Source: Maribacter aestuarii
Lineage (GTDB): Bacteria; Bacteroidota; Bacteroidia; Flavobacteriales; Flavobacteriaceae
Assembly: GCF_027474845.2 (NCBI RefSeq)
Contig: NZ_CP107031.2
Location: forward strand, 2,990,501-3,054,500
Length of the DNA: 64,000 bases
Direction of reading: 5' to 3'
In this document: piece after piece, positions 11,078 to 35,595 of the stretch
Layout: every line of letters begins with the position of its first letter
Position numbering within the stretch: the stretch's first letter is position 1
Notes under the pieces: generated by a model
Seen by the model: the letters and a program-made list of their open reading frames with translations, nothing else
What the model was told of the DNA's origin: nothing
Databases searched by the model: none
Made by a program: the position numbers and the translations under genes

Positions 11078-11236
11078 ACCGTTTATCCACACCTTTTTTC
11101 GGTAAGTGGTATTTAGGTGTCGTGTATTTAATCGATGGATTTTTGCACTTTATCCAAATTGATGCCGGATACCGAGTAATACGTGTTTTTCAGCGAATGA
11201 CCACCCCGTAAAATACACTTGTGCGAGTTATAATAG
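11078..11236 (+). promoter_or_regulatory. Phased box array upstream of small secreted protein (copy A)
   Basis: Six short boxes in fixed order: ACCG at 11078, TCGGT at 11099 (21 bp later), ATCGAT at 11131, a second ATC at 11152 (again 21 bp later), ACCGA at 11171, TTTCAGCG at 11188, then after 33 bp a -7-like TATAATAG at 11229. The same boxes at the same distances stand before the copies at 23442 and 35419 although most spacer bases differ. Tandem half-sites with 21-bp period are what LytTR-domain regulators bind; that assignment is inference. An RNA leader is the alternative. Confidence 0.7.
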
Positions 11237-11253
11237 TGTAACAAACGCAAGTC

Positions 11254-11490
11254 ATGAAAACAATAGCAACCATCTTCTTTATCTTCTTCATCGGAACTGC
11301 AGCCCAGGCTCAGAATAACACTACCGATGTTAAAGTGGAGACGGTTGAAATGACCATCGTTACCGAAACCGCTTACGAACTTAACTTGGAGAACAAGACG
11401 GAAGTTGCTAGGTTGTACAAGTTTAAAAATGCCAGAGTAAAAAAAGAGCTTTCTTTTTACACGAAGAGAAACGCCGCTAAAATGGCTTAA
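11254..11490 (+). CDS. Small secreted protein, KN[SA]RVKK family (copy A)
   Basis: 78 aa. Signal peptide MKTIATIFFIFFIGTAAQA with cleavage before QNN leaves about 59 residues. The mature part has a VKVETVEMTIV segment and a basic C-terminal module containing VARLYKFKNARVKK and ending KMA. Four paralogs in this window share signal and C-terminal module. Nearly identical at the N-terminus to the copy at 35183-35419. No known domain was recognised; function unknown. Controlled, I infer, by the box array just upstream. Confidence 0.75.
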   Translation: MKTIATIFFIFFIGTAAQAQNNTTDVKVETVEMTIVTETAYELNLENKTEVARLYKFKNARVKKELSFYTKRNAAKMA

Positions 11491-11513
11491 TACAAACCCA
11501 AAAATCAAAACCC

Positions 11514-11630
11514 ATGAGAAATTCTATCATTCACATCATAGCCACTAAAATTGAAACTGTTATTTTGTCTTTAGCCCCGCAGCCCACAAGAAAATATGCA
11601 TTGGTTTACGTTAGAAGTAATAAGAGATAA
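11514..11630 (+). CDS. Possible 38-aa peptide downstream of copy A
   Basis: ATG frame of 38 codons starting 23 bp after the copy A stop. The product is basic, with a hydrophobic start (SIIHIIATKIETVILSLA) and an end RKYALVYVRSNKR. It could be a co-transcribed peptide or a decayed paralog. The only support is position and an uninterrupted frame; no homology was recognised. Confidence 0.25.
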   Translation: MRNSIIHIIATKIETVILSLAPQPTRKYALVYVRSNKR

Positions 11631-11794
11631 TTAGACTAGTTGGTAGCTAGTTCCGACTTTCCTTTTCAGTTATCCATATACGTATGTAGGAAATAACTGA
11701 TTAAATCGATGAACTGCTTAAAATATCAGATTAAAAACAACTACACATGTAGGAAAATGAGTTTCAAAACGTGTAGCTCATCGAATATTTGGTA

Positions 11795-11825
11795 ATTCAT
11801 CGGTAAAACCATTCCACTTATCGAT
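11795..11825 (+). promoter_or_regulatory. 21-bp-phased ATCG repeat upstream of copy B
   Basis: TTCATCGG (ATC at 11799-11801) and CTTATCGAT (ATC at 11820-11822) are 21 bp apart, the same phase as in the other small-gene promoters. A further CTCATCGAA lies 19 bp upstream. The later ACCGA and TTTCAGCG boxes are not found here, and the distance to the ATG is shorter. Confidence 0.45.
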
Positions 11826-11881
11826 TCAAATCAAATGAAAAGCGCAAAGTGATAGTTATCATTATCCCAAATTAACCTACT

Positions 11882-12118
11882 ATGCGTGCCATTCTTTTTT
11901 TATTTCTAGTTATCTGTGCCGGATTCTTTGCCCAAGCACAGGATAGTGAACAACCCAAAGTGAAGACGATGACCATGCCCGTTGTCCAAAGTATTGATAC
12001 CACAAATGTGGCGAAGTCCGAATGTCCGACCCTAGCCGGAGTATTTGTACTTAAGAACTCCCGGGTAAAAAGGGCGTTAACCTTTAAAACAAGAAAAAGG
12101 GATGCGAAGTTGGTTTAA
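11882..12118 (+). CDS. Small secreted protein, KNSRVK family (copy B, divergent)
   Basis: 78 aa. Signal peptide MRAILFLFLVICAGFFAQA, cleavage before QDS. The mature chain has a VKTMTMPVV segment and the family C-terminus LKNSRVKRALTFKTRKR, ending KLV. It lacks the ARLY tetrad present in the other three and is the most diverged member. Its stop codon overlaps, tail to tail, the stop of the convergent esterase gene by 4 bp. Function unknown. Confidence 0.7.
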   Translation: MRAILFLFLVICAGFFAQAQDSEQPKVKTMTMPVVQSIDTTNVAKSECPTLAGVFVLKNSRVKRALTFKTRKRDAKLV

Positions 12119-12834
12119 TCAAGTGCCATCTCTGTTTCTTCAACAGGTAGCACGACTTCTTTTAGAACGTCCCAAACATTTTCAGCCACTATTTGTTGAC
12201 CTTCAGCCGTGGGATGAATTCCATCTTCCAGGTTCAGCTCCGGGTTCCCTGCAACCCCTTCCAGTAAGAACGGAATAAGATAAACATCATTCTTTTCCGC
12301 AAGACTAGGAAAGATATTCCTGAACTCGGTGGTGTAGGCTTGCCCCATGTTCGGAGGAATTTGCATTCCCGCCAAAACTATTTTGGTATACTCATTTTTT
12401 GACCGGACCAAGTCTATCATTTCCTGAAGATTATTTCTGGTTTCCTTTAAAGGGATTCCACGAAGACCATCATTGGCACCCAATTCCAGGACAAAAACAT
12501 CCACGTCCTGATTCAAGACCCAATCCAAACGGTTTAATCCACCAGAAGTGGTTTCCCCACTAAGGCCAGAGTTTATGACGGTATACTTCAGACCTAGGGA
12601 ATCCAAACGTTGTTGTATAAGGTTGGGAAAGCCATCCTCGGTATCCAATCCGTAAGCCGCGGTAAGGCTATTGCCAAAAAAGAGGATTACCTTATTATCG
12701 TCTACTATTTCCTCATCCGCTAAGGTCGTTCCTTGTTCCGTGGTTGTTTCTACTTCCTTTTCTTTCGGGTTTTCACCACAGCTTAATAAGAAGAATACTG
12801 CCAAAAAATAACTAAACTTTAATACTTTGTGCAT
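12115..12834 (-). CDS. tesA: SGNH-fold arylesterase/lysophospholipase (TesA-like), lipoprotein
   Basis: 239 aa with a lipoprotein signal (MHKVLKFSYFLAVFFLLSC, lipobox at about residue 19). SGNH blocks: FFGNSLTAAYGL near residue 51 (block I, nucleophile Ser, with N in place of the usual D of GDSL), LSGETTSGG (block II, Gly), LGANDGLRG (block III, Asn), DGIHPTAEG (block V, Asp and His). Hydrolyses esters or thioesters in the periplasm. Divergent from an ABC transporter pair of the YbbA-YbbP type; E. coli has tesA divergent from ybbA-ybbP in the same arrangement, which strengthens the symbol. Confidence 0.87.
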   Translation of the reverse strand: MHKVLKFSYFLAVFFLLSCGENPKEKEVETTTEQGTTLADEEIVDDNKVILFFGNSLTAAYGLDTEDGFPNLIQQRLDSLGLKYTVINSGLSGETTSGGLNRLDWVLNQDVDVFVLELGANDGLRGIPLKETRNNLQEMIDLVRSKNEYTKIVLAGMQIPPNMGQAYTTEFRNIFPSLAEKNDVYLIPFLLEGVAGNPELNLEDGIHPTAEGQQIVAENVWDVLKEVVLPVEETEMALD

Positions 12835-12895
12835 AGTGTAGGGTGCTAGAAATCAAAATCATTTCTTTATTTTGCCTGCTTGTAGCAAATGATTT

Positions 12896-13585
12896 ATGAC
12901 AAAGATATTAAACGTCCGCAACCTGAAGAAAACCTATACGAGCGGTTCCAAGAATTTAACGGTATTGGATGACATTTCATTCGATATAAATGCGGGGGAT
13001 ACCTTTGCCATTGTGGGGCCATCCGGTAGTGGAAAAACAACACTTTTAGGCCTGTGTGCGGGCCTTGACCGGTCCGATGAGGGTTCCGTTGAACTGTGTG
13101 GAAGGGAATTGAGCTCCCTGAACGAAGACCAACGGGCGCTGCTAAGAAATCAAAAAGTAGGTTTTATATTTCAGGATTTTCAATTGCTACCCACTTTAAC
13201 GGCCTTGGAGAACGTAAGTGTACCCTTGGAACTCCAAGGAGTTCCGAACGCACAAAAAGATGCGATGGAATTACTTGAGAAAGTAGGTTTGGGGGATAGG
13301 CACGACCATTATCCTTCCCAACTTTCCGGTGGGGAGCAGCAACGGGTGGCACTGGCAAGAGCATTTTCCAATAAACCCGCCATTCTGTTTGCGGACGAAC
13401 CTACGGGAAACCTGGACGAGGAAACGGGTGAAAAAGTAATCAAGCTGCTGTTTAACCTGAATAAGGAAATGGGGACGACCTTGGTCATCGTGACCCATGA
13501 TTTGGATCTTGCACGTTTAAACCAACATGTCTTGCGGTTAAAGGGAGGAAAAATTATTGCGAACGAAACAGCCCAAGCATCTTGA
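12896..13585 (+). CDS. ybbA: ABC transporter ATP-binding protein (YbbA-like)
   Basis: 229 aa MacB/LolD-type ATPase. Walker A GPSGSGKTT near residue 42, Q-loop FQDFQLLPTLTALENV, signature LSGGEQQRVALARAF near 144, Walker B ILFADEPTGNLD near 166, and H-loop VIVTHDLDLAR. Powers the FtsX-like permease encoded next, whose start overlaps its stop by 4 bp (ATP-binding gene ends at 13585, permease frame begins 13582). Such pairs move or extract envelope lipids or lipoproteins rather than import nutrients. Confidence 0.92.
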   Translation: MTKILNVRNLKKTYTSGSKNLTVLDDISFDINAGDTFAIVGPSGSGKTTLLGLCAGLDRSDEGSVELCGRELSSLNEDQRALLRNQKVGFIFQDFQLLPTLTALENVSVPLELQGVPNAQKDAMELLEKVGLGDRHDHYPSQLSGGEQQRVALARAFSNKPAILFADEPTGNLDEETGEKVIKLLFNLNKEMGTTLVIVTHDLDLARLNQHVLRLKGGKIIANETAQAS

Positions 13586-16131
13586 GCGATTTTATACATG
13601 TAGTAAAGACTCCTATTCGTTGGTTGTTTAAAATGGCGTGGAGAGATGGCAAGGCAAGTGGTAAGCGATTATTGCTATTTATGGCGTCCATCATCTTAGG
13701 TATCGCTGCCGTGGTATCCATACAATCCTTCAGCCAGAACCTACAAGAGAATATTGGCCTTCAGTCGAAGGCTTTAATGGGAGCCGATTATCTAATTGAT
13801 AGTAACCAGCCTGCCAATGAACGGGTTGTGGCTATTATGGATTCCCTTGGTGGGGCCAATGCTAAGGAGGTCAAATTTGCCTCAATGGCGGCCTTTTCCA
13901 AAAACAGGGCGACGAAGTTGGTACAGGTTAGGGGCGTGGAAGGTAATTTTCCGTTTTACGGTGAACTGGAAACAGAGCCTTTGGAAGCCGCCCAAAATTA
14001 CCAAAAGAAAGGTGGTGCTTTGGTAGACGCCACGGTAATGCTTCAATTCGATTTAAAACCGGGGGATAGTGTTAAATTGGGCAATCTGACTTTTCCGATT
14101 ATCGGTTCCTTGATTACCGCGCCAGGTAGTACGGGTATAGGTACATCCGTAGCACCTCCCGTTATGGTGCCCTTTGAGTTTATGGAGCCTAGCGGTCTGC
14201 TTCAAAAAGGGAGTCGGTTGGAATACAACTATTACTTTAAAGCTCCCGAGGCCGACTTACAAAAGCTGAATAAGGAGATAGACCCCTTATTGGATGAACA
14301 AAATGCCGACTTGGATACCCATACGGATACCAGCCAACGTTTGGGCAGGCGGTACGAAAACGTAGGCCGATTCCTGAACCTTGTAGCCTTTATAGCCCTT
14401 TTATTGGGTTGCGTGGGGATTGCAAGCTCCGTTCATATCTATATCAAAGAAAAACTAAGGGCGGTAGCGGTGCTTAAATGTCTAGGGGCAACTCGTAAGC
14501 AGACCTTCCTTATTTTTCTAATTCAAATTGTGGGAATGGGCTTGGTAGGCGGTATTATAGGGACGGCAGTGGGCTTAGTGTTACAGCAATCCTTTCCGTT
14601 CATCCTTCAGGAATTCTTACCCTTTCAAGTAGAGATAAGTACTTCTTTCCAGGCCATTTTCATGGGACTGGTATTGGGTGTTCTCATGTCGGTTCTTTTT
14701 GCTTTATCGCCATTGATCAATACCTGGTACGTATCGCCACTACAGGTGCTACGGGTACAGGAAAATCTGGGCACCAAGTCAAGGGCCGCACAAATTGTTG
14801 TCATCGTTAGCATTATCCTGTTTGTATTTCTCTTTGCCCTTTGGTTGTTAGGAAACCTAAAATACGCCCTGAGCTTTGTATTGGGAATTTTGGTCACATT
14901 TTCTATTCTAGCCGGGGTTGCAATTCTCTTTATGCGATTGATAAAACGTTATTTTCCTAAATCTTGGAGTTTTACGGCAAGGCAGAGCTTGTTGAACCTC
15001 TTTAGACCCAACAACCAGACCGCTGTCCTCATCCTGGCCATTGGTATTGGTACGTTTCTGATCAGCACGCTCTATTTTACGAAGGATTTCCTGCTCGCCA
15101 AGGCACAGATCGAATCGAACGAAAAAAGTCCGAACATCATCATGTTCGATATTCAGACCCAACAAAAGGAGGACGTGGCCAACACGATCACCCCAAAAGG
15201 TTTGCGCATACTCAATAACATACCCATTATTACGATGCGACTCCAAAAAATAAAGGATCGCAGCGTAAACGATATCCGATTGGACACTACCTCTAGAGTT
15301 AATAAATGGATCCTAAGTCACGAGTTTCGGGTAACTTATAGGGATTCTTTGATTGCTTCGGAGAAATTGGTTTCGGGCACTTGGAATCCTAAAGTGGATA
15401 AAACGAAACCCATTCCTATTTCCCTATCCGATAATGTGGCGGGAGATGCCAGGGTTGTAGTAGGGGATACCTTGTTGTTCAATGTGCAAGGTCAGTTAAT
15501 GGAAACCGTGGTCGGTAGCATCCGTGAAGTGGATTGGGGCAGGATGCAACTTAACTTCTCCGTGGTTTTCCCAACCGGGGTGTTGGAGAATGCACCACAA
15601 TTCCATGTCATGACCACCAACGCGCCCGATAAGGCTAGCTCGGCTAACTTACAACGGGAATTGGTACGGAAATTTCCCAATGTGTCCATTTTGGATTTGA
15701 GACAAGTGTTGACACTCGTAGAAAGTATTCTGGACAAGATTTCATGGGTGATTAGTTTTATGGCATTTTTTAGTATCCTTACGGGTATCATTGTCCTTAT
15801 TGGCTCGGTACGGAACAGCAAATATCAGCGCATAAAGGAGAGTGTGCTGCTTAGGACCTTGGGCGCCCATAGGAAGCAAATCCTGAGAATAACGGCTTTG
15901 GAGTATTTGTATCTTGGTATTTTGGGTAGCGGCGTGGGTATTTTATTATCCCTAGTAAGTAGCCAGTTACTGGCCTTTTTTGTCTTTGAAACGCCTTTTG
16001 TGCCCTCTTTGATTCCCTTTTTGGTGGTACTTCCCGGTATCACCTTGTTGGTATTGCTCATAGGTTTGTCCAATAGTAGGAGTGTTTTGAACAGTCCACC
16101 TTTACAGGTCTTACGGAAAGAGGGGAAGTGA
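13582..16131 (+). CDS. ybbP: FtsX-like ABC permease (YbbP-like), large form
   Basis: 849 aa inner-membrane permease of the FtsX/MacB type. A first membrane span lies at about residues 29-48, a periplasmic MacB-type core at 50-240, then a first three-span block near 265-390, two more spans near 405-450, a second soluble domain, and a final three-span FtsX block at about 715-835. It ends PPLQVLRKEGK. Duplicated FtsX halves and length near 800 match E. coli YbbP. The start codon is TTG overlapping ybbA. The last part of this gene is duplicated, in decayed form, at 17438-17532. Confidence 0.9.
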   Translation: MSDFIHVVKTPIRWLFKMAWRDGKASGKRLLLFMASIILGIAAVVSIQSFSQNLQENIGLQSKALMGADYLIDSNQPANERVVAIMDSLGGANAKEVKFASMAAFSKNRATKLVQVRGVEGNFPFYGELETEPLEAAQNYQKKGGALVDATVMLQFDLKPGDSVKLGNLTFPIIGSLITAPGSTGIGTSVAPPVMVPFEFMEPSGLLQKGSRLEYNYYFKAPEADLQKLNKEIDPLLDEQNADLDTHTDTSQRLGRRYENVGRFLNLVAFIALLLGCVGIASSVHIYIKEKLRAVAVLKCLGATRKQTFLIFLIQIVGMGLVGGIIGTAVGLVLQQSFPFILQEFLPFQVEISTSFQAIFMGLVLGVLMSVLFALSPLINTWYVSPLQVLRVQENLGTKSRAAQIVVIVSIILFVFLFALWLLGNLKYALSFVLGILVTFSILAGVAILFMRLIKRYFPKSWSFTARQSLLNLFRPNNQTAVLILAIGIGTFLISTLYFTKDFLLAKAQIESNEKSPNIIMFDIQTQQKEDVANTITPKGLRILNNIPIITMRLQKIKDRSVNDIRLDTTSRVNKWILSHEFRVTYRDSLIASEKLVSGTWNPKVDKTKPIPISLSDNVAGDARVVVGDTLLFNVQGQLMETVVGSIREVDWGRMQLNFSVVFPTGVLENAPQFHVMTTNAPDKASSANLQRELVRKFPNVSILDLRQVLTLVESILDKISWVISFMAFFSILTGIIVLIGSVRNSKYQRIKESVLLRTLGAHRKQILRITALEYLYLGILGSGVGILLSLVSSQLLAFFVFETPFVPSLIPFLVVLPGITLLVLLIGLSNSRSVLNSPPLQVLRKEGK

Positions 16132-16228
16132 TTTAGCTTTTTTCTTTTAGTATCTTAGTCGTATAATGGATATATGATCAATGATCATATACAATTGTTC
16201 TTTGTTATTAAAATAAACTACAGACCAA
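16132..16228 (+). repeat. Direct repeat flanking accessory region, copy 1 (with palindrome)
   Basis: The last ~95 bp of ybbP plus this spacer (about 16036-16200) recur at about 17438-17600. The spacer contains a 21-bp palindrome at 16171-16191 (TATATGATC, centre A, mirror-complement arm). The shared segment reads TTTTAGTATCTTAGTCG and onward in both copies. The repeat brackets the hydrolase gene at 16229. Confidence 0.8.
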
Positions 16229-17368
16229 ATGAGACATTTCTATTTAACTTTCTTAGTGATTTTCTGTTTATCCTTCTCGATGCGAGCTCAAAGTCAAGAT
16301 ACGCTAGTAGACGTTGGGGGTTATAAAATACATTTTAACATAATAAAAGGAACAGGAACTCCAATTCTTTTTGAAGCTGGTGCAGGTAATGATGGTTCTA
16401 TATGGGATAACATATTAGAAAAAATTTATAAAGTTACTGGCACAACATTAATCACCTATGACCGCTCAGGATTTGGACAAAGTGAAGTAAATCCAAATCT
16501 AACAAACGACTCGGATTTTGGAATATTAAATGGCATTAAAGAACTAGAGACTGGTCTTTCTAAGCTGGGTTTTGACAATGAAATTATACTTGTTCCGCAT
16601 TCCTACGGTGGATTTTATACAACGCTTTATGCATCACGTCATCCTGATAAAGTAAAATATGTAGTTCGTATTGATGCAAATTTAGTAGGAGTTTATACTG
16701 ATGAAGTACTGAAAATCATGGATGAAGAAGAATCTCCTCCCAAAACTCCTGAAACACTAGGCATCTATTATCTTGTAAAAAACTATCCGGAAACCGTTAA
16801 GGTATTACGTAAAATTGATTTTCCTAAAAATGTTCCTGCTATAGATATTATTTCACCTATTAACAGAGGTTATCCTGACAAATACTGGGCGTTAATAAAA
16901 AAAGTCCATAAAGATTTTGTTAATACTGAATCTAATCGAGTTGAAATTATCGCAGAAGGAAGTGGTCATTATATCTTTAAGGATAATCCTGGACTTATCA
17001 TAAATACCATTATTAAAGCCTACTCAGAAACACTAGACGAAGGGAAGCAAAATGCGATATTACAAAAGGCTCTAGATAACGCCATAAAATTATCTATTGA
17101 AGCTAAGAAGAACAATCGTTCAGAACAAGATTTGAATACACTGGGATATTCATTTTTGGGAAATGAAGAATTAGATAAGGCTTTAGAAGTTTTTAAATTA
17201 AGCACAATTTTATTTCCAGATAGTTTCAATGCATATGATAGTTATGGTGAAGCTTTATTAAAAGCAAATCGAAAAGCAGAAGCAATAGAAATGTATGAGA
17301 AATCAATCGAATTGAATCCAGAAAATGAAAATGGGAAAAAGGTTTTACTGCAATTGAAACAAGAATAA
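16229..17368 (+). CDS. Secreted alpha/beta hydrolase with C-terminal TPR repeats
   Basis: 379 aa with a signal peptide (about 1-20, ending SMRAQ). The hydrolase domain shows an oxyanion-hole region EAGAGNDGSIWD, TYDRSGFGQS, the nucleophile elbow PHSYGG near residue 128 and a C-terminal catalytic His in GSGHYIFKDNP near 252. Residues 285-379 are TPR-like helices (YDSYGEALLKANRKAEAIEMYEKS region). Substrate unknown. The gene is AT-richer than ybbP, is flanked by duplicated ybbP-end DNA, and its stop is followed by a cassette-like tail, so it looks acquired. A similar hydrolase-TPR design occurs at 19621. Confidence 0.83.
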   Translation: MRHFYLTFLVIFCLSFSMRAQSQDTLVDVGGYKIHFNIIKGTGTPILFEAGAGNDGSIWDNILEKIYKVTGTTLITYDRSGFGQSEVNPNLTNDSDFGILNGIKELETGLSKLGFDNEIILVPHSYGGFYTTLYASRHPDKVKYVVRIDANLVGVYTDEVLKIMDEEESPPKTPETLGIYYLVKNYPETVKVLRKIDFPKNVPAIDIISPINRGYPDKYWALIKKVHKDFVNTESNRVEIIAEGSGHYIFKDNPGLIINTIIKAYSETLDEGKQNAILQKALDNAIKLSIEAKKNNRSEQDLNTLGYSFLGNEELDKALEVFKLSTILFPDSFNAYDSYGEALLKANRKAEAIEMYEKSIELNPENENGKKVLLQLKQE

Positions 17369-17404
17369 CAACGTAACACGAAGGCTATAGCAAATAGGGG
17401 TCTG
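17369..17404 (+). repeat. Cassette-like 3' tail 1
   Basis: Immediately after the stop codon, CAACGTAACACGAAGGCTATA resembles the sequence after two other genes of this region (18581 and 19435): an AAC start, a CA-rich stretch, then GGCTA. Recombination-site-like, but this copy is short. Confidence 0.4.
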
Positions 17405-17437
17405 TATAATTTATTGGAATGGGTATATTTTTTAAGT

Positions 17438-17532
17438 CCGGTATTGTTGTGTTGGTTTTACTCATAAGTTTGTCCACTAACGGAGTGTCGAACAGTCCAC
17501 CCTTAGAGGTCTTGCGGAAAGAGGGGAAATAA
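17438..17532 (+). pseudogene. Fragment of ybbP 3' end
   Basis: Translates in frame as VLVLLISLSTNGVSN-SPPLEVLRKEGK and stop, matching the C-terminus of YbbP at 16050-16131 with substitutions and one residue missing. The downstream 70 bp also match the ybbP spacer. It has no start of its own, so it is a relict of a segmental duplication or of homologous insertion, old enough to have diverged. Confidence 0.85.
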
Positions 17533-17605
17533 TTTAGCTGATTTCTTTTAGTATCTTAGTCGTATAATGGATATATGATCAATGATCATAAACAATTGTT
17601 GTGCA
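17533..17605 (+). repeat. Direct repeat flanking accessory region, copy 2
   Basis: Second copy of the spacer that follows ybbP: TTTTAGTATCTTAGTCGTA and then the TATATGATC half-palindrome region (17572-17590), ending ACAATTGTT. Marks the other side of the hydrolase gene insertion. Confidence 0.75.
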
Positions 17606-17628
17606 ACATTTGACTAAAATTAGAATAG

Positions 17629-17829
17629 ATGACTAAATACCAGAAATACAAATTGATAATTCTAGCTGTTTTTTGCTTTTTCCTATTGTTGATACTTTGG
17701 AATTATTCCTCGAACGGCAGATATACTATCAGAGAAGAAAGCTTAATAATATTAGACACTAAAACTGGTACTATGTACATACCATCTGGGAAAAAATATT
17801 TAGAGTTAAAGGACTTCACAGAAAATTAG
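17629..17829 (+). CDS. Small single-span membrane protein
   Basis: 66 aa. A charged start (MTKYQKYK) precedes one membrane helix at about residues 9-26 (LIILAVFCFFLLLILW), followed by an outside part with a beta-like segment IREESLIILDTKTGTMYIP. The end LKDFTEN is acidic. No family recognised. It lies 11 bp before a lipoprotein gene on the same strand, so they are probably expressed together. Confidence 0.5.
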   Translation: MTKYQKYKLIILAVFCFFLLLILWNYSSNGRYTIREESLIILDTKTGTMYIPSGKKYLELKDFTEN

Positions 17830-17840
17830 ATTCATCCATT

Positions 17841-18269
17841 ATGAAAAAAATTATACTTCTTTCTCTAGTTGCATTATTTTATTGCTCTTGCAACAATTCG
17901 ACATCTACCGATAAAGAACCCGAAAAATCACAGACTGAATTGGATTACGAAATAGCAGATATGTTTTTGGAATTTGATGCGGAAAAAATTGGACTGATTT
18001 CTATTATCAAAGACATTCCACAAGAAAAAGCCAATTCAGTATTAAGAGATTATTTAGCAAAAACATTTCGTTCAACTATTCAAACAATGGAAGACCCAAG
18101 TTATGTTGTAAAAGTAATTGACACCATAGCTAATGAGAATGATTTACCGAAAAAATTAACTGCATCAATAATTTTCAGTTATCAGTACGAGATGATAACA
18201 AGAGATGAAATTATTGAGGACTATCAAGATGAAATGTTAGACTACCAAAATGAAGTAGACCAATATTAG
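17841..18269 (+). CDS. Lipoprotein of unknown function
   Basis: 142 aa with lipoprotein signal MKKIILLSLVALFYCSC (lipobox Cys at about 17). The mature part is helical and acidic (YEIADMFLEFDAEKIGLIS, YQDEMLDYQNEVDQY at the C-terminus). No recognised domain. Starts 11 bp after a small membrane protein gene and ends 2 bp before a DUF6804-like gene; all three are AT-rich and form one likely transcript inside the accessory region. Confidence 0.6.
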   Translation: MKKIILLSLVALFYCSCNNSTSTDKEPEKSQTELDYEIADMFLEFDAEKIGLISIIKDIPQEKANSVLRDYLAKTFRSTIQTMEDPSYVVKVIDTIANENDLPKKLTASIIFSYQYEMITRDEIIEDYQDEMLDYQNEVDQY

Positions 18270-18271
18270 TA

Positions 18272-18720: not shown

Positions 18721-18732
18721 TTAATTATAAAA

Positions 18733-19600: not shown

Positions 19601-19620
19601 TAAAATCATAAAACGGTCAT

Positions 19621-23265: not shown

Positions 23266-23422
23266 ACCGATAAATTACCAATTCTTTCGGTGTGTTGATT
23301 TCGAGGTCCATTTCATTTATCGATACTTTTTTGCACTTTATCTAGATTTTCTACGGTAACCGAAAAAGCCTGTATTTCAGCGTCATAGGAAGTATGTAAG
23401 GCCATTTCTACGGTTATATTTA
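23266..23422 (+). promoter_or_regulatory. Phased box array upstream of small secreted protein (copy C)
   Basis: Same order and spacing as copy A: ACCG 23266, TCGGT 23287 (+21), ATCGAT 23319, ATC 23340 (+21), ACCGA 23359 (16 bp after ATC, as in the others), TTTCAGCG 23375, and TATATTTA at 23415 after 32 bp. Two spacers are one base shorter than in copies A and D. Spacer sequences differ freely, which argues for protein binding sites and not for a shared coding sequence. Confidence 0.7.
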
Positions 23423-23441
23423 TAAGACCCAAATGCTTATA

Positions 23442-23699
23442 ATGAAATCTTTATTAACCTTAGTAGTAGTTCTCTTTTTTGGCACTGTTGCTTTAGCCCA
23501 AAATTCAAATAGCAATGATAAAGTGGACATTCTTAAAATGGATATTGTTTTGGTTGCTAGCGATGTTGGCGATTTCAGTTTTCCGAAAACTTCGGATCAT
23601 ACTGAAAAAAGCGTAGCTCGTTTATACCGACACAAAAACTCCCGAGTTAAAAAAGCGTTGACTTTTAGTACCAAGAAGAGCCGACCAAAATTGGCATAA
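23442..23699 (+). CDS. Small secreted protein, KNSRVKK family (copy C)
   Basis: 85 aa from ATG 23442 (MKSLLTL); an ATG three codons earlier exists. Signal peptide to about residue 19, ending VALAQ. The mature part has VDILKMDIVLV and the C-terminal module VARLYRHKNSRVKKALTF with a basic end (STKKSRPKLA). It has an insertion (about FSFPKTSDHTEKS) relative to copies A and D. Function unknown; expression probably from the box array upstream. Confidence 0.73.
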   Translation: MKSLLTLVVVLFFGTVALAQNSNSNDKVDILKMDIVLVASDVGDFSFPKTSDHTEKSVARLYRHKNSRVKKALTFSTKKSRPKLA

Positions 23700-25549: not shown

Positions 25550-25641
25550 AAGAGTGTTGATAGATTAGAATTTTAGTTTTGTGATTTTTCTTTAGCAAGT
25601 TTAGGTTACCACTAACCAGTATCAACATTAATAAACTATCT

Positions 25642-28155: not shown

Positions 28156-28268
28156 GAAACGGGTTTTTGAATTAGCCGCTTAAATATAAGTATTATCCCA
28201 AGAAAAAGAACCCGGAATAATGACTTTATATACCCGATTGCGAAGTTGCTGGAAAGTGTATGCTACGA

Positions 28269-29483
28269 TTAAGAAACAGGTGATAATTGCTGTTTTACCT
28301 CTCTAAACTTGATGATATAGTTCGTGCCCTTTTTATTATTATCTCTTTGGATGGTGCCCTTCAATTGCCTTGTAAGATTATAGATAAGTTTTAGGCCAAG
28401 GGATTTGGTATTCTTATAGGTGACATTTTCTGGATAACCAACACCATTATCACCGATGTTCAAGGTGTATTGTTTGTCTATTTCTTTTTTAAGGGCGATG
28501 TATATTTCACCTTCCTCTTCATCCGCAAAGCCATATTTTAGGGCATTGGTGACGGCTTCATTGATAAGAAGCCCTAACGGAATTGCCGTATCTATGCCCA
28601 ACTTAATTTCTGGAATATCGATGTTTAACTGCACCTTACTATCCAATCCTTTAATTGAACGGATTAAATATTCACTTAATTCTTGTACATAGGATTTGTA
28701 CTCAATATGAGCAATGTCTTTTCTCATATATAGCATTTCATGGACCATTGCCATGGAAATTACTCTATTCTGCGTACTTTTTAACAATGCTTTCATTCTA
28801 GCCTCCTCCACATTTCTGGATTGAAGACTAAGTAAGCTGGAAACCGTTTGTAGATTGTTTTTCACTCTATGATGGACTTCTTTCAAGAGGGTTTCCTTTT
28901 CATCCATTTGTAGCATCAAGGCCTTTTTGGATTTATATAGGGCATTGTGGGTTTTCAATAAGGTTTTTCCAAAGATGTTTCCCAATAGATATACGGAAAA
29001 GAGTACTGAGAAAAGGTTGAAAAGGTTCTGTGACGACGCCGGGACAACATTGTATGTAAAAGAAAAATCTGGAAGACTCTGTGAAAATATTAAAATGACC
29101 AAAAAGAAAATAAGGTTCAAGTAAATCTGACCGTATTTTTTAGTGGTTACGTATCCTGCAAAGACAATCAAGGCCAAAGTAAAAATAAATGGGCTGCTTA
29201 TACCACCACTGTAAAGCGTGATGATCAAGGCACTTACCAATGCCATTATAGAAGAAATATTGTATGTAGAAGTTAGGCTACTATGTTTTTTAAAGATTAC
29301 GGTATTCAAAAGATTTAAAATTCCGAATGCAACAAACACATAGGGGATTATTCGTGTAATGTCCAATACGAAAAAACAGACTAGTCCAAATAAGATGGCC
29401 AGGAAACTTGCTACATAGTTAACCTTTAATACCAGCTGAATCCTATCCTTAAGTCGCTCTTGGTCGATATTGAAATCGTTCAT
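28269..29483 (-). CDS. Membrane sensor histidine kinase (HisKA_2/HATPase type)
   Basis: 404 aa. Six hydrophobic segments at about residues 24-175 form the membrane sensor. The phosphoacceptor box DEKETLLKEVHHRVKNNLQTV is near 200, typical of HisKA_2/HWE-like kinases in Bacteroidota. The ATPase part has the N box INEAVTNALKYGF near 315 and G1 DNGVGYP near 350, with a degenerate G2 region SLGLKLIYNLT. No response regulator gene is adjacent. Such kinases often work with LytTR-type regulators in this phylum. Confidence 0.88.
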   Translation of the reverse strand: MNDFNIDQERLKDRIQLVLKVNYVASFLAILFGLVCFFVLDITRIIPYVFVAFGILNLLNTVIFKKHSSLTSTYNISSIMALVSALIITLYSGGISSPFIFTLALIVFAGYVTTKKYGQIYLNLIFFLVILIFSQSLPDFSFTYNVVPASSQNLFNLFSVLFSVYLLGNIFGKTLLKTHNALYKSKKALMLQMDEKETLLKEVHHRVKNNLQTVSSLLSLQSRNVEEARMKALLKSTQNRVISMAMVHEMLYMRKDIAHIEYKSYVQELSEYLIRSIKGLDSKVQLNIDIPEIKLGIDTAIPLGLLINEAVTNALKYGFADEEEGEIYIALKKEIDKQYTLNIGDNGVGYPENVTYKNTKSLGLKLIYNLTRQLKGTIQRDNNKKGTNYIIKFREVKQQLSPVS

Positions 29484-29616
29484 AAAATTAGATTAGTTAC
29501 CGGGTTTAAGGAACGTTTAGTTCTGTAAAGCTAATTATGTTTTAAATATAAATCCAAATACTTTATAAAAAGTTAAAAATAAATAGAGTACGGGCAAAAT
29601 TGAAACTCTTCACAAC

Positions 29617-29650
29617 AAAAAAAGCATCCGATTATGGATGCCTTTTTTTT
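29617..29650 (-). terminator. Intrinsic terminator behind secA (bidirectional)
   Basis: 6-bp stem GCATCC (29624-29629) and GGATGC (29636-29641), 6-base loop, with an A-run on one side and a T-run on the other. It lies 20 bp past the secA stop and would work in both directions. Confidence 0.85.
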
Positions 29651-29669
29651 AAGATTTAAATATTTTCGC

Positions 29670-32600
29670 TTAATCGTTGGTCAATACCCACTCTCCCTTA
29701 GTAATAAGAGGTTCTGCTTGTTTGTATTTGACCGTCTTGCTTTCACCGGACATTACATTTTTGATGGTAACTCGCTCGTTTCTACCAATTTTTGGCTGTT
29801 CCCTAACTATGGTCTCGGTCACAGACGGACGCTGTCCTTGTGTTTGACCGGCCGCCCTGTTCCGTGCAGCAAGTTCGTCACTGTTCGGAATTTCTTCCTT
29901 GGAGGTTTGCAGGTTCTCCTTTCTACGTTTTTCATTCCGTGCCTCTTGGATTTCATTTGAATTCCCAGAGGGTAGTTCCCCTTTAAAAAGAAAGGATACG
30001 ATTTCCTTGTTCACCTTCTCTATCATACCCTTAAAAAGTTCAAAGGCCTCAAACTTGTAAATAAGTAATGGGTCTTTTTGCTCATGCACTGCCAATTGAA
30101 CGGACTGTTTAAGCTCATCCATTTTTCTCAAATGGGTCTTCCATGAGTCGTCTATGATGGCAAGGGAAATATTCTTTTCAAAATCGGTTACCAATTGCTT
30201 ACCGTCACTGTCATAGGCCTCCTGTAGATTGGTCACCACATTAAGACTTTTTATACCGTCCGTAAACGGTACCACAATGCGTTCAAACTTATTGGCTTTG
30301 TCCTCGTAAACTTGTTTAATGACAGGAAAAGCAGTTGCTGCATTCCGCTCCATTTTTTCTTTGTAATGCTCATAACCGGCTTTGTAAACTCTTCCGGTAA
30401 TCTCTTGAGCACTCAATTTTCCAAACTCTTCCTCGGTCACGGGGGAGGTCATGGAAAAGTATTTGATCAGTTCAAACTCAAAGTTCTTATAGTCGTTTGC
30501 GCCTTTATTGCTTTCTACGATTACTTCGCAGGTATCGTAGACCATATTTGCAATATCCACTTTAAGACGCTCTCCTTGGAGGGCATGACGTCTTCGCTTG
30601 TAGACTACTTCCCGTTGAGCATTCATGACATCATCATATTCCAGTAGACGCTTTCTAACCCCAAAGTTGTTCTCTTCTACTTTTTTCTGGGCACGCTCAA
30701 TAGATTTGGTCATCATACTATGCTGAATAACCTCACCTTCTTCAAGCCCCATTTTATCCATCATCTTGGCAACACGATCGGATCCGAACAAACGCATCAG
30801 GTTGTCTTCCAAGGAAACATAGAATTGTGAACTTCCCGGGTCTCCCTGACGTCCCGAACGACCTCTTAATTGCCTATCCACACGACGGGAATCGTGACGC
30901 TCCGTACCTACAATGGCTAGACCACCGGCTTTCTTTACCTCTTCCGTTAATTTAATATCCGTACCACGACCGGCCATGTTAGTGGCAATGGTCACCACAC
31001 CTGGTTTTCCAGCTTCCGCAACTACATCCGCTTCTTTCTTATGTAACTTAGCATTTAACACGTTGTGCGGTACTTTACGTATGTTCAACATACGGGATAG
31101 CAACTCAGAAATCTCCACCGATGTCGTACCGATAAGTACAGGTCTTCCAGATTGGCTCAATTTGGTCACCTCATCAATGATGGCGTTGTACTTTTCCCTC
31201 TTGGTCTTATAAATTAAATCGTTGCGATCATCACGGGCAATGGGTCTGTTGGTCGGGATTTCCATCACGTCCAACTTATAAATTTCCCAAAACTCTCCAG
31301 CTTCTGTAATGGCGGTACCTGTCATACCCGCCAATTTGCTGTACATCCTAAAGTAGTTCTGTAACGTAACGGTAGCGAAAGTTTGGGTTAAAGCTTCAAT
31401 TTTTACGTTCTCCTTGGCTTCTATAGCTTGGTGAAGACCATCTGAGTAGCGACGCCCGTCCATGATACGGCCGGTTTGCTCATCTACGATCATCACCTTG
31501 TTGTCCATTACCACATATTCCACATCTTTTTCAAAAAGTGTATACGCCTTTAATAATTGACTCATGGTATGAATACGCTCACTCTTTACCGTAAAGTCCT
31601 TGAACAATTCTTCTTTAAGCTCAGCTTCTTTCTCAATTTCAAGGTTCTGCTCTTCTATTTTGGCGATTTCGCCACCTATGTCTGGCATTACGAAGAAATC
31701 CCTGTTCTGTTCTCCTGAGATATAATCAACGCCTTTATCGGTCAATTCTATCTGGTTATTTTTTTCATCGATTACGAATAACAAATCCTCATCCACTTTG
31801 GGCATTTCCCGATTGTTATCCTGCATGTAATAATTCTCTGTTTTTTGAAGTAGCTGTTTTACACCTTCTTCACTCAAGAACTTGATCAATGCCTTATTCT
31901 TTGGAAGTCCCCTAAAAACACGTAGCAATAGAAAACCGCCTTCTTTGGTATCACCCTCCGCAATAAGTTTTTTGGCTTCTGCCAAAACCCCAGTAAGGTG
32001 TTGCCGTTGTTTTTGGACAATCTCGTTCACCTTTGGCTTTAGCTCGTTGAACTCATGACGATCTCCCTCAGGAACTGGACCTGAGATAATTAGTGGTGTA
32101 CGGGCATCGTCCACCAATACGGAATCCACCTCATCCACTATGGCGTAATTATGGGGACGCTGTACTAAGTCTTTTGGCGTGTGCGCCATATTGTCCCTTA
32201 GGTAATCAAAACCAAATTCATTATTGGTGCCATAGGTGATATCGGCATTATAGGCCGCTCTTCTACCGTCCGAGTTTGGTCTGTGATGGTCTATACAATC
32301 TACAGAAAGTCCGTGAAACTCAAAAATAGGGGCCATCCAGGCACTATCCCTTTTAGCAAGGTAATCGTTCACCGTAACCAAGTGAGCACCGTTCCCCGTT
32401 AATGCATTAAGATATAGGGGTAGGGTAGCGACCAAAGTTTTTCCCTCACCGGTTTGCATCTCTGCAATTTTTCCTTGGTGAAGTGCAATACCTCCAATGA
32501 GCTGCACATCGTAATGCACCATATCCCAAGTAACTTCCTTTCCGGCGGCATCCCATGAATTTCTCCATATCGCATTGTCACCATCCAGAATAACGTAATC

Positions 32601-33032
32601 CTTATCTCCAGAAAGTTTACGGTCATATTCCGATGCCGTAACCGTAATGCTCTCGTTATTTACAAAACGCTTGGCAGTTTCTTTTACTACTGCAAAAGCC
32701 TCTGGGAGCAAAGTGTTTAAGGTTTCTTCCGATATTTTGTAGGACTCTTCCTTTAGCTTATCTATCTCAGCATAAATGTCCTCGTTCTTGTCGATGTTGG
32801 TAGATTCCTCGACTTCTTTTTCCAGGGCCGTTATTTGATCTGTAATGTCCTTGTACGAATCTTGAATAGTCTGTTTAAAATCGATGGTTTTTTGCCGAAT
32901 TTCATCATGACTCAATTTTTCCAGCTCGGCTTCAAAGGATTTTATTTGGTCTACTAAAGGCTGAAGTTCTTTTACGTCTTTTTTGGATTTATCACCCACA
33001 AAGGCCTTTAGGATTGAATTTATAAAACTCAT
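29670..33032 (-). CDS. secA: Preprotein translocase ATPase SecA
   Basis: 1120-residue motor of the Sec pathway. Nucleotide-binding fold: GIALHQGKIAEMQTGEGKTLVATLP near residue 175 (Walker A), IVDEVDSVLVDDARTPLIISGP near 290; preprotein cross-linking region, then helical scaffold with the second ATPase half (TNMAGRGTDIKL, RRVDRQLRGRSGRQGDPGSSQFY-type residues) near 690-760. It is longer than E. coli SecA (901) because of insertions between NBD1 and NBD2, as in other Bacteroidota. The C-terminus ends EPLITKGEWVLTND: the cysteine-rich zinc motif that binds SecB is absent. Followed by a strong terminator. Confidence 0.97.
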   Translation of the reverse strand: MSFINSILKAFVGDKSKKDVKELQPLVDQIKSFEAELEKLSHDEIRQKTIDFKQTIQDSYKDITDQITALEKEVEESTNIDKNEDIYAEIDKLKEESYKISEETLNTLLPEAFAVVKETAKRFVNNESITVTASEYDRKLSGDKDYVILDGDNAIWRNSWDAAGKEVTWDMVHYDVQLIGGIALHQGKIAEMQTGEGKTLVATLPLYLNALTGNGAHLVTVNDYLAKRDSAWMAPIFEFHGLSVDCIDHHRPNSDGRRAAYNADITYGTNNEFGFDYLRDNMAHTPKDLVQRPHNYAIVDEVDSVLVDDARTPLIISGPVPEGDRHEFNELKPKVNEIVQKQRQHLTGVLAEAKKLIAEGDTKEGGFLLLRVFRGLPKNKALIKFLSEEGVKQLLQKTENYYMQDNNREMPKVDEDLLFVIDEKNNQIELTDKGVDYISGEQNRDFFVMPDIGGEIAKIEEQNLEIEKEAELKEELFKDFTVKSERIHTMSQLLKAYTLFEKDVEYVVMDNKVMIVDEQTGRIMDGRRYSDGLHQAIEAKENVKIEALTQTFATVTLQNYFRMYSKLAGMTGTAITEAGEFWEIYKLDVMEIPTNRPIARDDRNDLIYKTKREKYNAIIDEVTKLSQSGRPVLIGTTSVEISELLSRMLNIRKVPHNVLNAKLHKKEADVVAEAGKPGVVTIATNMAGRGTDIKLTEEVKKAGGLAIVGTERHDSRRVDRQLRGRSGRQGDPGSSQFYVSLEDNLMRLFGSDRVAKMMDKMGLEEGEVIQHSMMTKSIERAQKKVEENNFGVRKRLLEYDDVMNAQREVVYKRRRHALQGERLKVDIANMVYDTCEVIVESNKGANDYKNFEFELIKYFSMTSPVTEEEFGKLSAQEITGRVYKAGYEHYKEKMERNAATAFPVIKQVYEDKANKFERIVVPFTDGIKSLNVVTNLQEAYDSDGKQLVTDFEKNISLAIIDDSWKTHLRKMDELKQSVQLAVHEQKDPLLIYKFEAFELFKGMIEKVNKEIVSFLFKGELPSGNSNEIQEARNEKRRKENLQTSKEEIPNSDELAARNRAAGQTQGQRPSVTETIVREQPKIGRNERVTIKNVMSGESKTVKYKQAEPLITKGEWVLTND

Positions 33033-33193
33033 AGGTATTTTCTATTACAATTGAAAAATCTGGGACTTGTTTTCCCAGCCAATTTTCAATAAATTATTTG
33101 ACATCGGTAAATAAAACCGACGACCTCTATTGAACAAAAGGTATTCCAGACTTTAATTTAGAGCAGAAATCGTCAATAGACTGCCAAAATTAC

Positions 33194-33223
33194 ATAAAAA
33201 AAAAGCCTCCAAGGAGACTTTTT
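33194..33223 (-). terminator. Intrinsic terminator behind the DUF2795 gene
   Basis: Minus-strand AAGTCTCC/GGAGGCTT stem with a short loop, preceded by A and followed by nine T residues. Lies 24 bp past the stop of the DUF2795 gene. Confidence 0.75.
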
Positions 33224-33246
33224 AGTAGTAATTATGATATCATATA

Positions 33247-33471
33247 TTAATATTCATCCTCGTTCCAGAGGTAGTCTTCTTCCGTAGGATAGTCAGGCCA
33301 AATTTCTTCGATAGACTCATAAATTTCGCCTCCTTCTTCCTCCATGGACTGTAGGTTCTCTACAACCTCCAAAGGCGCACCGGTTCTAATTGAGTAGTCG
33401 ATTAACTCATCCTTACTTGCCGGCCAAGGTGCATCACTTAAATAAGATGCCAGTTCTAATGTCCAATACAT
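33247..33471 (-). CDS. DUF2795 domain-containing protein
   Basis: 74 aa, very acidic. The sequence WTLELASYLSDAPWPASKDELIDYSIRTG matches the DUF2795 pattern (a small winged-helix-like domain), followed by PLEVVENLQSM and an acidic tail (EEIWPDYPTEEDYLW). No signal peptide. Common next to secA or stand-alone in Flavobacteria; function unknown. Own transcript with a terminator. Confidence 0.85.
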   Translation of the reverse strand: MYWTLELASYLSDAPWPASKDELIDYSIRTGAPLEVVENLQSMEEEGGEIYESIEEIWPDYPTEEDYLWNEDEY

Positions 33472-33607
33472 GGTAATAGTGTGATTTTAAATTTTTGCAA
33501 AAGTAATTTTTAAATGTAAACAGCCAAGATATTTTGCAATTATTTCGACCTAATTATAAACATAATTTTTACATTGATAATTTGATAACGAAGAATTTAC
33601 GGATTTA

Positions 33608-34183
33608 TTAGTTCTTTTTCTCCGGAATCCATTTCACCTCCGCTACCTGTAGTTCTTTCGACAATTTTCGTGCCAACATGAAGAGATAATCAGAGAGTCT
33701 ATTCAGATAGGATAAAACCAACTCATCAAAAGGTTCCGCTTCGTAAAGCAACGTCGCCATACGTTCTGCACGTCTGCAGACGGTACGGGCAATATGACAG
33801 TATGACACGGTGGTATGGCCTCCAGGTAGTATGAAATGAGTCATTTGTGGTAAATCACCATCCATACTATCGATGGCGTTTTCTAAAATTTCAATATCCC
33901 CTATACTTATTCTAGGTATATTCAACCGCTCGCGTCCATCCTTAAGCAAAGCTTTTTCAGGATCTGTGGCTAAAATAGCCCCTACGGTAAATAATTTTTC
34001 TTGAACCTGTATTAACTCATTTTTACTACTTTCCGAAATATTTTGATCACGGATTAGCCCCAACCAAGAATTCAATTCGTCAACCGTACCGTAACTTTCT
34101 ATACGGATATGGTGCTTAGGAACTCGGGTACCCCCAAAAAGAGCGGTAGTACCCTTATCTCCTGTTTTGGTATATATTTTCAT
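33608..34183 (-). CDS. Cob(I)yrinic acid a,c-diamide adenosyltransferase (PduO type)
   Basis: 191 aa. Transfers adenosyl from ATP to cob(I)alamin, giving adenosylcobalamin. Motifs: IYTKTGDKGTTALFGGTRVPK near residue 3 (ATP site), YGTVDELNSWLG near 31, and CRRAERMATLLYEAE near 135 (second conserved Arg/Glu block). Length is normal for the family. Adenosylcobalamin is the cofactor of methylmalonyl-CoA mutase, and meaB at the left edge serves the same enzyme. Standing alone upstream of a small membrane protein gene on the same strand. Confidence 0.93.
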   Translation of the reverse strand: MKIYTKTGDKGTTALFGGTRVPKHHIRIESYGTVDELNSWLGLIRDQNISESSKNELIQVQEKLFTVGAILATDPEKALLKDGRERLNIPRISIGDIEILENAIDSMDGDLPQMTHFILPGGHTTVSYCHIARTVCRRAERMATLLYEAEPFDELVLSYLNRLSDYLFMLARKLSKELQVAEVKWIPEKKN

Positions 34184-34271
34184 AATTAAAGTTCAAGTCC
34201 AAGCTCAAATACAAGTACCAAGCTCAGAAAAAGGTATGAATTGTAATTGGTAGTTGTGGATTTGATTTCGC

Positions 34272-34412
34272 CTATTTCTTATCTTCTTTTCTCTTGTAAT
34301 CTGACATAAACTTACGCGACCTCCGCTCCTTAGACCGACCTCTATTTCTAAAGACTATCCATAAGTATAAAACAGCTAAAATTCCAAAAACTATGTAAAT
34401 AGTATTATTCAT
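34272..34412 (-). CDS. 46-aa membrane protein
   Basis: Too short for usual ORF calls. ATG 34412 opens a frame of 46 codons: MNNTIYIVFGILAVLYLWIV is a membrane helix and the rest is strongly basic (FRNRGRSKERRSRKFMSDYKRKEDKK). One-span proteins with a basic cytoplasmic tail of this exact design recur in Flavobacteria beside cobalamin adenosyltransferase and ABC-F genes, from memory. Not verified by search. Function unknown. Confidence 0.6.
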   Translation of the reverse strand: MNNTIYIVFGILAVLYLWIVFRNRGRSKERRSRKFMSDYKRKEDKK

Positions 34413-34444
34413 AACATAATTATGCGTTATCTAAAATTAGTAGT

Positions 34445-34939
34445 TTATATCCGTATTCTAAAATGTTCCTTCGCTTGCTCTTTCCTAAAAAAAACAATCC
34501 CGCAATAAAAGAGGTCTACTGTTATCCTTACCTGTTCCATCTTTTTTATACCCTTCCAATTCTCCACGTTTTCTTTAGAATTGTAAATGCCCTTGATTAA
34601 AAGCATGCTATTGTTATGAATTTGATCTTTGGCCACATTTTTGAAATGGGCACTACTTTCATCGGCATAAATCATGTCAAATGGCATTTGGGTAAATGAG
34701 ATGCCATTACATAACGTACTTATCTGATTTTTAAGAGTGTCGGAATCATTTACCAGTCCGATGTTCTTATAATCAAAATAAGTAATGCTTTTGAAGAGTA
34801 CTTCTTCGGTAACCGGAAGTTTTCTTTCTGTCCTCTGATACAAACATTTGGTGACAAAATCATAAATAAAAGGGGAATGTACCCCATGTTGATTAGTGGC
34901 CGAAAACAGGAATTTGATATACCGAATAAAGCGAAACAC
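34445..34939 (-). CDS. Internally deleted SAM-methyltransferase-like protein
   Basis: 164 aa. The first 35 residues (IRYIKFLFSATNQHGVHSPFIYDFVTKCLY) and the last 75 (FDMIYADESSAHFKN, then NSMLLIKGIYNSKENVENWKGIK and FYCGIVFFRKEQAKEHFRIRI) match a Flavobacteria class I methyltransferase that is normally about 240 aa. Between them only about 50 residues remain, and the SAM-binding core with the E/DxGxGxG motif is missing. The frame is intact and conserved ends are well preserved, so it is either a recent decay product or a non-catalytic derivative. Confidence 0.7.
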   Translation of the reverse strand: MFRFIRYIKFLFSATNQHGVHSPFIYDFVTKCLYQRTERKLPVTEEVLFKSITYFDYKNIGLVNDSDTLKNQISTLCNGISFTQMPFDMIYADESSAHFKNVAKDQIHNNSMLLIKGIYNSKENVENWKGIKKMEQVRITVDLFYCGIVFFRKEQAKEHFRIRI

Positions 34940-35182
34940 AGTAGCAATTCAATTTCCGCCAAAAGTACTAATATCGAACAGTACTATTTATTATATCGAA
35001 ACAGTTTTTTAAAGGGTGACATGCCCAAGGTCTCTCATCGAAACTGCAGAGTGAATAAACAATTATTATATGATGGATAAAAGGTATTGAAGAGGCGCTA
35101 AAAAAATGATGTAAGTTTGAAATGGATAGCCCTAAACCTGCCTTTCGGCAGGTAGGGTCCACCCGAGGGGATAATATTTTAA
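34940..35182. other. Intergenic region with a 7-bp-stem palindrome
   Basis: About 240 bp holding an ACCTGCC/GGCAGGT hairpin (35136-35153, 4-base loop TTTC) and scattered ATCGA half-sites (for example CTCATCGAAACTGCAG at 35033-35048). No gene-like frame. Confidence 0.4.
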
Positions 35183-35419
35183 TTATGCCATTTTGGCCTT
35201 GTTTCTTTTCGTAGTAAAGGATAATGCCTTTTTAACTCTGGAGTTTTTAAACTTGTACAATCTTGCAACCTCCGTTTTGGTGTCCAAATTAAGTTCGTAA
35301 GCAGTTTCGTTAACGATGGTCATTTCAACAGTCTCCACTTTAACATCAGTAATATTGTTCTGAGCCTGGGCTGCAGTTCCGATAAAAAAGATAAAGAAGA
35401 TAGTTGCTATTGTTTTCAT
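35183..35419 (-). CDS. Small secreted protein, KNSRVKK family (copy D)
   Basis: 78 aa, almost the same protein as copy A: identical MKTIATIFFIFFIGTAAQA signal, then VKVETVEMTIVNETAYELNL and the C-terminal module VARLYKFKNSRVKKALSF with an end TTKRNKAKMA. It lies 24 kb away on the opposite strand, so this is a dispersed duplication. Its promoter region has the full box array in matching spacing. Function unknown. Confidence 0.75.
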   Translation of the reverse strand: MKTIATIFFIFFIGTAAQAQNNITDVKVETVEMTIVNETAYELNLDTKTEVARLYKFKNSRVKKALSFTTKRNKAKMA

Positions 35420-35436
35420 GACTTGCTTTGGTTACA

Positions 35437-35595
35437 CTATTATAACGGTAGCAAGGGTACTTTTGGGGGTGGTGTTTCGCTGAAAACCCTATATTTTTCG
35501 GTGTCTTACAAATGAAGGGATGAAGTGTAGAAATCAATCGATGAACTGCAATCACCTTCCAAACAGCTTATCGAAAAAAGATGCGGATAAACGGT
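35437..35595 (-). promoter_or_regulatory. Phased box array upstream of small secreted protein (copy D)
   Basis: Read on the minus strand: ACCG at 35595, TCGAT at 35574 (21 bp later), ATCGAT at 35542, ATC at 35521 (21 bp later), ACCGA at 35502, TTTCAGCG at 35485, and TATAATAG at 35444 after 33 bp. The whole element is 159 bp, the same as copy A. Outside the boxes the two differ, apart from ACCGTTTATCC and CTTTTTTCG near the start. Confidence 0.7.

Follow-up and report, generated by a model that had tools for sequence, protein, structure and literature searches.

Four small genes (genes 1 to 4, with start positions 11254, 11882, 23442 and 35419; Table 1) are present in a stretch of 64,000 nucleotides of the Maribacter aestuarii genome (contig NZ_CP107031.2; positions 2,990,501 to 3,054,500), referred to here as the window, and a long array of six repeated sites was found upstream of three of them. 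Each gene encodes a protein of 78–85 amino acids (aa) that has a hydrophobic N-terminus extending to AQA or ALA and carries the motif KN[SA]RVK[KR], as had been proposed in an earlier reading of the sequence alone (the original prediction). In the product of gene 1, the signal-like N-terminus, MKTIATIFFIFFIGTAAQA, is followed by an acidic linker and then by a basic 28-mer. The genes had been described as dispersed and in both orientations, which holds for the layout overall. However, the set is not purely dispersed, as gene 2 follows gene 1 in tandem at a distance of 628 bp. Gene 4 shares 90% identity with gene 1 and lies in the opposite orientation, 24 kb away.

Table 1. Small-protein genes and associated features in the window
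Feature	Position	Strand	Remarks
M23 peptidase gene	10370–11074	+	directly upstream of gene 1; cluster (matched by eye) in 22 of 76 related loci
Six-site array of gene 1	11078–11200	+	anchor C of sites 1–6 at 11080, 11100, 11133, 11154, 11173, 11194
Conserved dyad GTTATAATAGTGTAAC by start codon of gene 1	11227–11242	+	probable -10 region
Small secreted protein gene 1 (11254)	11254–11490	+	78 aa; C-terminal 28-mer at 11404–11487
Degenerate array of gene 2	11706–11871	+	weak match, E 0.0028 (window and 76 loci)
Small secreted protein gene 2 (11882)	11882–12118	+	78 aa; divergent paralogue; C-terminal module at about 12032–12115
Six-site array of gene 3	23266–23387	+	anchors at 23268, 23288, 23321, 23342, 23361, 23381
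Corresponding stretch of gene 3	23413–23428	+	probable -10 region
Small secreted protein gene 3 (23442)	23442–23699	+	85 aa; C-terminal module at 23613–23696
Small secreted protein gene 4 (35419)	35183–35419	-	78 aa; C-terminal module at 35186–35269
Same dyad, gene 4	35431–35446	-	probable -10 region
Six-site array of gene 4	35473–35595	-	anchors at 35593, 35573, 35540, 35519, 35500, 35479

When the genome, a single contig of 3.86 Mb, was searched with a profile of the protein, full-length matches were obtained for these four genes only. The next-best match (expectation value (E) 0.005) covered profile positions 1–59 of 85 and was inside a 582-aa open reading frame. A partial match at 3346454 (locus L005; E 0.013) is opposite a longer reading frame and was not counted as a member. 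A model of the array, for which 150 of 1803 first-look candidates were scored, gave three strong matches genome-wide (E 2e-32, 2e-27 and 1e-21), directly upstream of 11254, 35419 and 23442, and the fourth-best match had an E of 0.014. The assignment of the array to three of the four genes in the original prediction was borne out, as gene 2 is preceded only by a degenerate version that was absent from the matches listed in this search. The whole-genome search for protein and array that had been proposed with it returned four full-length proteins and three strong arrays, each at a family gene. The arrays start at 11078, 23266 and 35595, the outer two positions being exactly the limits given previously.

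The sites of the array share a repeat unit of about CANTTYAYCGA with a period of 21 bp, with CG at the centre of five of the six units and ATCC at that of the fourth. Units 1 and 2 are on the opposite strand and point away from the gene, and units 3 to 6 are on the gene strand and point towards it. Mean mismatches to the unit are 1.9 to 3.7 at the six sites, compared with 6.9 over all array positions. The array had been called phase-locked, and the spacings of 20, 33, 21, 19 and 21 bp indeed vary little in 141 distinct arrays (matches with E <1e-8 only, the set also used for anchor conservation), with 20 bp between sites 1 and 2 in 97/101, 33 bp between sites 2 and 3 in 131/136, 21 bp between sites 3 and 4 in 137/138, 19 bp between sites 4 and 5 in 138/139 and 21 bp between sites 5 and 6 in 117/139. 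The anchors were more constant than the spacers, and an upstream region of ~180 bp was found to be kept between genera, whereas the sequence further upstream was not. A dyad-like stretch with a TATA-like core beside the start codon is probably the -10 region. The array of gene 1 also includes TTATCCACA, which we take to be a DnaA box motif. An exact box was found in 1 of the 141 arrays, and the reading of the array as DnaA boxes or an origin was rejected.

Among 199 genomes of the same family (Flavobacteriaceae), 41 had a protein match at E 0.001. Twelve protein rows were dropped before counting, namely two C-terminal fragments (G075 C10 and G152 C2) and ten matches to the N-terminus only, one of which is in G164 and nine of which are in frames of 151–1152 aa in genomes with no other match. 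As these nine genomes were dropped, 41 became 32, with 1 to 9 copies per genome. One weaker row, a frame with stops (G050 C29), was kept; this stop-broken family gene (locus L239) still has its array. The array, searched for with stricter filters and 13 candidates scored per genome, was found in exactly the same 32 genomes as the protein. At least 93 array matches were obtained, and in 86 of these 93 a family gene follows directly downstream. The other seven have no listed family gene, and three of them are at contig ends. Ten of the 96 genes in this sample, 11882 among them, had no array match. Within the genus, a strong array was present in 35 of 36 genomes and the protein in all 36, though genes were not paired individually between the two lists.

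A further set of 76 related loci was drawn from a scan of named genomes in which the best 80 of 286 were kept. In these loci and the window, a strong array (E <1e-4) is located at 147 of 164 family genes, and 159 have a match of any strength up to E 10. Elsewhere in this set there were 71 of the 231 array matches, a single one of which was strong and runs towards a contig end (L097). The conclusion that gene and array form one conserved unit is supported by these observations. The full array was not found at many genes without the small protein, seven of the 93 matches in the family sample being such cases. The proposal in the original prediction that the family has its own cis-element is supported as far as the full array is concerned, as this is tied to the family. 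However, the repeat unit is not wholly private to it, because a few other genes, most of them encoding predicted secreted proteins, are preceded by two- or three-site versions.

These shorter versions were examined in the M. aestuarii genome using a paired unit of period 21 with up to 3 mismatches, which was found 14 times, compared with once for the reversed control (an earlier, simpler pattern gave 10 and 2). Three of the 14 pairs are in the small-gene arrays and one locus was counted on both strands, leaving ten loci. In five of these (L209/L215, L213, L216, L217 and L225) the pair precedes, by 36–151 bp, a gene whose product is predicted to be secreted or a lipoprotein; these products presumably include YceI and CAP proteins. 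At L212 the pair overlaps the start of a gene that we take to encode a sugar-acyltransferase, and four pairs (L218–L221) are inside genes or not upstream of any listed gene. The protein encoded at L213 (genome position 3587034; minus strand, starting at locus position 1405) is an unrelated signal-bearing protein of 54 aa with a three-site repeat about 100 bp upstream. L205 and L209 encode lipoprotein-like products, one of 70 aa and the other of at least 480 aa, that have a common N-terminal pattern, SCxKDxDLxSxYVI, and paired repeats 57–58 bp upstream of their genes.

Of 1846 candidates from a search of 5.8 billion proteins, 1799 had an E of 0.01 or better, and among the 120 matches listed the organism, where named, was mostly Maribacter. 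The related loci span Maribacter, Arenibacter, Pricia, Ulvibacterium, Pseudozobellia, Kriegella, Euzebyella, Eudoraea, Muriicola, Saonia and other genera. In an order-wide sample, 5 of 196 genomes had the protein at E 1e-6, all five from the same family; as the 25 genomes listed for this sample all belong to that family, it says little on other families. One orphan family of predicted secreted proteins, found in 31 of 198 sampled genera of Flavobacteriaceae, is tied to a precise operator. No description of the protein family or of the array was found among the matches listed in the open-access literature, in agreement with the earlier view that the system was undescribed.

The design of the protein was examined in 147 distinct sequences, proteins of <66 aa having been left out. 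A signal-like start of 17–21 aa is followed by an acidic linker of 20–50 aa and a basic module of 28–30 aa, a length range partly set by rule, as the last 30 residues were taken as the module in the 15 proteins without the module start motif. The mean net charge is +8.7 for the module and -2.9 for the linker. The module pattern was matched by 131 of the proteins, and AxA was found at the expected place in 122, with MK or MR at the start followed by a hydrophobic stretch. The products are predicted to be secreted; export would be by the general pathway and would leave a mature protein of roughly 50–78 aa that contains the acidic linker and a cationic module of ~28 aa. The charge of the module makes acidic polymers, on the cell surface or within the extracellular matrix, its probable binding partners.

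None of the four window proteins had a Pfam match above the cut-off (the best being DUF3316, at 17.3 bits compared with a cut-off of 24.4), and no NCBIfam family was above its cut-off for any of them. Two of them gave weak N-terminal matches to a beta-lactamase model of NCBIfam, at 12.5 and 13.2 bits compared with 460. One related cluster, P0097, bears the name of the GLPGLI family from its source label. However, as the window proteins match no NCBIfam model above the cut-off, that name is unsupported here.

Between genes 1 and 4, similarity was 0.85 in the coding sequence, 0.80 in the promoter and 0.65 in the array, and 0.29 further upstream and 0.42 downstream. Their codons differ by 21 synonymous and 8 non-synonymous changes. 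Neighbouring family genes on the same strand are often 446–778 bp apart, mostly each with an array, and it appears that copy number rises when a gene and its array are duplicated together as a single cassette. The similar gene-and-array copies at 11078–11490 and 35183–35595 are inverted and flank 24 kb, and the same opposed layout, with about 16 kb between the copies, was found in G199, G206 and G210.

Regulators with a LytTR domain are described as mostly binding two repeats of 9–11 nt, direct or inverse, with 11–13 nt between them, and Escherichia coli YpdB as binding GGCATTTCAT twice, 21 bp apart (PMC4847170). As given there, the YpdB site has the core CATTTCAT, and the array unit CANTTYAYCGA fits this. 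Sites 3–4 and 5–6, at 21 bp, have the spacing of LytTR repeats, and sites 4–5, at 19 bp, are slightly short of it. Like the LytTR promoters yhjX (YpdB) and P2/P3 (AgrA), the array has short direct repeats of ~21-bp period upstream of a promoter. However, those promoters have two sites, whereas here there are six in opposed groups of two and four, standing at many copies of one gene family and without an adjacent regulator in the window. The genome encodes 17 LytTR domains above the cut-off. Of the LytTR proteins, that encoded at L186 is the closest to YpdB when compared over the full length, and on the DNA-binding domain alone those of L187 and L185 scored equally well. Among the single sites listed at 18 LytTR loci, no pair at ~21 bp that would point to a self-regulated LytTR gene was found.

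We consider the chances about even that a LytTR-type response regulator binds the six-site array cooperatively and switches on the duplicated secreted-protein genes together. As sites 3 to 6 have the same direction at 21, 19 and 21 bp, a bound regulator would occupy one face of the helix. A LytTR-type activator would bind these four sites cooperatively along that face and would extend to within about 35 bp of the probable -10 region, on its upstream side. The gene-plus-array cassettes would give a shared response in which copy number tunes the output, and the secreted cationic products would act via the module, either on the cell surface or within the matrix. A histidine kinase of the HisKA_2 type without an adjacent response regulator is encoded between genes 3 and 4 (28269–29483, minus strand), in a cluster that recurs, as matched by eye, in 21 of the 76 related loci. 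It is possible that this is the partner kinase of a LytTR regulator.

Several observations weigh against these interpretations. A LytTR regulator is usually, though not essentially, encoded beside its target. No LytTR gene was found in the window, and a clear full-length one was found at only 3 of the 76 related loci, using BLAST with 16 of the 17 M. aestuarii LytTR proteins (that of L196, a short frame, was missing). LytTR regulators are described as sharing no common consensus (PMC4847170), and the likeness to the YpdB site is thus suggestive only. Close orthologues of the L186 protein (E <1e-90; 14 candidates scored per genome) were found in 20 of the 199 genomes and in only 11 of the 32 with the array, and L186, the sole LytTR gene so compared, is therefore ruled out as the general regulator. 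Within the array, sites 5 and 6 are the worst fits, with 3 or fewer mismatches in 55% and 40%, and the anchors were picked on the alignment, a choice that favours constant spacing. Seventeen of the 164 genes have no strong array, 11882 among them, though in four of these the start is no more than 34 bases from a locus edge. Four arrays that are not at contig ends are at no family gene (G080, G102, G106 and G086, where the next gene presumably encodes a PorP/SprF protein), and in G214 a weak array match of the genus search (E 8e-6) is followed by a gene for a different predicted secreted protein. As limited numbers of candidates were scored in the array searches, the counts are lower bounds. 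An AlphaFold2 model has low confidence (predicted local distance difference test 62, predicted template modelling score 0.23), with a signal helix at residues 2–19, one short helix and no confident fold, which leaves charge as the basis for a surface-binding role. A riboswitch or thermometer in an RNA leader was also considered and rejected, the consensus of 41 sequences having 5 pairs and only -0.98 kcal/mol (no Rfam search was made); three of the five pairs show a compensatory change in some sequence, so that an RNA role is weakened rather than eliminated.

The array may instead be a true activator or repressor array serving a transcription factor that is not of the LytTR family and forms multimers at every second helical turn; we regard this as possible but less probable than a LytTR regulator. 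Short units in direct repeats every ~20 bp would suit any cooperative factor, the alternation of 21, 19 and 21 bp and the departure of sites 5 and 6 from the motif are consistent with one, and a MerR-like protein is described as binding direct repeats as cooperative multimers (PMC5859096). However, a known LytTR site is matched in both motif and period, and 17 LytTR proteins are encoded in the genome. A very improbable explanation, already disfavoured, is that this is an ordinary clade-restricted duplicated family in which upstream likeness reflects only recent duplication of gene and promoter. Several tandem copies with near-identical upstream regions in one genome are as expected from this, but neutral decay predicts no constant spacing across genera, the array is retained between genera and the sequence further upstream is not, the anchors are steadier than the spacers, and proteins only 31–50% identical to that of gene 1 still have arrays.

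With regard to the products, LytTR regulators other than AgrA, in the Com and plantaricin systems, also control peptide systems, and strain-specific variation is usual for pheromones. AgrA is itself a LytTR regulator of a peptide system (PMC4227749), and the small exported product is common to the AgrA, ComE and plantaricin systems and the family described here. The family could be secreted autoinducers, the released cationic module being sensed by a kinase of the same LytTR system as in Agr, Com and plantaricin. The predicted secretion, small size, variable linker and near-constant C-terminal module are compatible with this, as are the LytTR-like sites at most copies. However, we consider it unlikely, as the module is conserved across genera without strain-specific variation, no LytTR regulator gene is adjacent in the window, and no processing site or dedicated transporter turned up, although no systematic search was made. 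The family differs from those systems in that its N-terminus resembles a general signal peptide and it occurs in Flavobacteriaceae. That the proteins are bacteriocin-like cationic antimicrobials used against competitors is equally doubtful. They are small, cationic and tandemly amplified, with one to nine copies per genome, but the C-terminal module shows conservation, not diversification, matches above the cut-off were lacking in both Pfam and NCBIfam, and the commonest neighbours are general-looking (MsrA, GDSL esterase, M23 peptidase and ABC transporter) and do not include an immunity gene, neighbours of <90 aa not having been clustered.

A broader form of the LytTR interpretation, that the system is a Gram-negative counterpart of Agr/Com, namely a clade-wide LytTR circuit of Flavobacteriaceae with amplified secreted cationic miniproteins as its output and perhaps its signal, is improbable on present evidence. 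If true, the cassettes of gene and six-site array would let gene dosage set the group response. The protein that binds the array, once found, would give targets to one of the 17 LytTR regulators if it is among them, and would also show when the miniproteins are made, making a surface role directly testable.

The surroundings of the family genes are partly shared between genomes. Clusters matched by eye to the MsrA, GDSL esterase and M23 peptidase of the window were found in 41, 30 and 22 of the 76 related loci, respectively. About 6.5–9 kb before the first small gene, three genes in a row (2183–4722, plus strand) have similar clusters in 23–24 of the 76 loci; their presumed products are a sigma factor of the ECF type, an anti-sigma factor and a third, larger protein.

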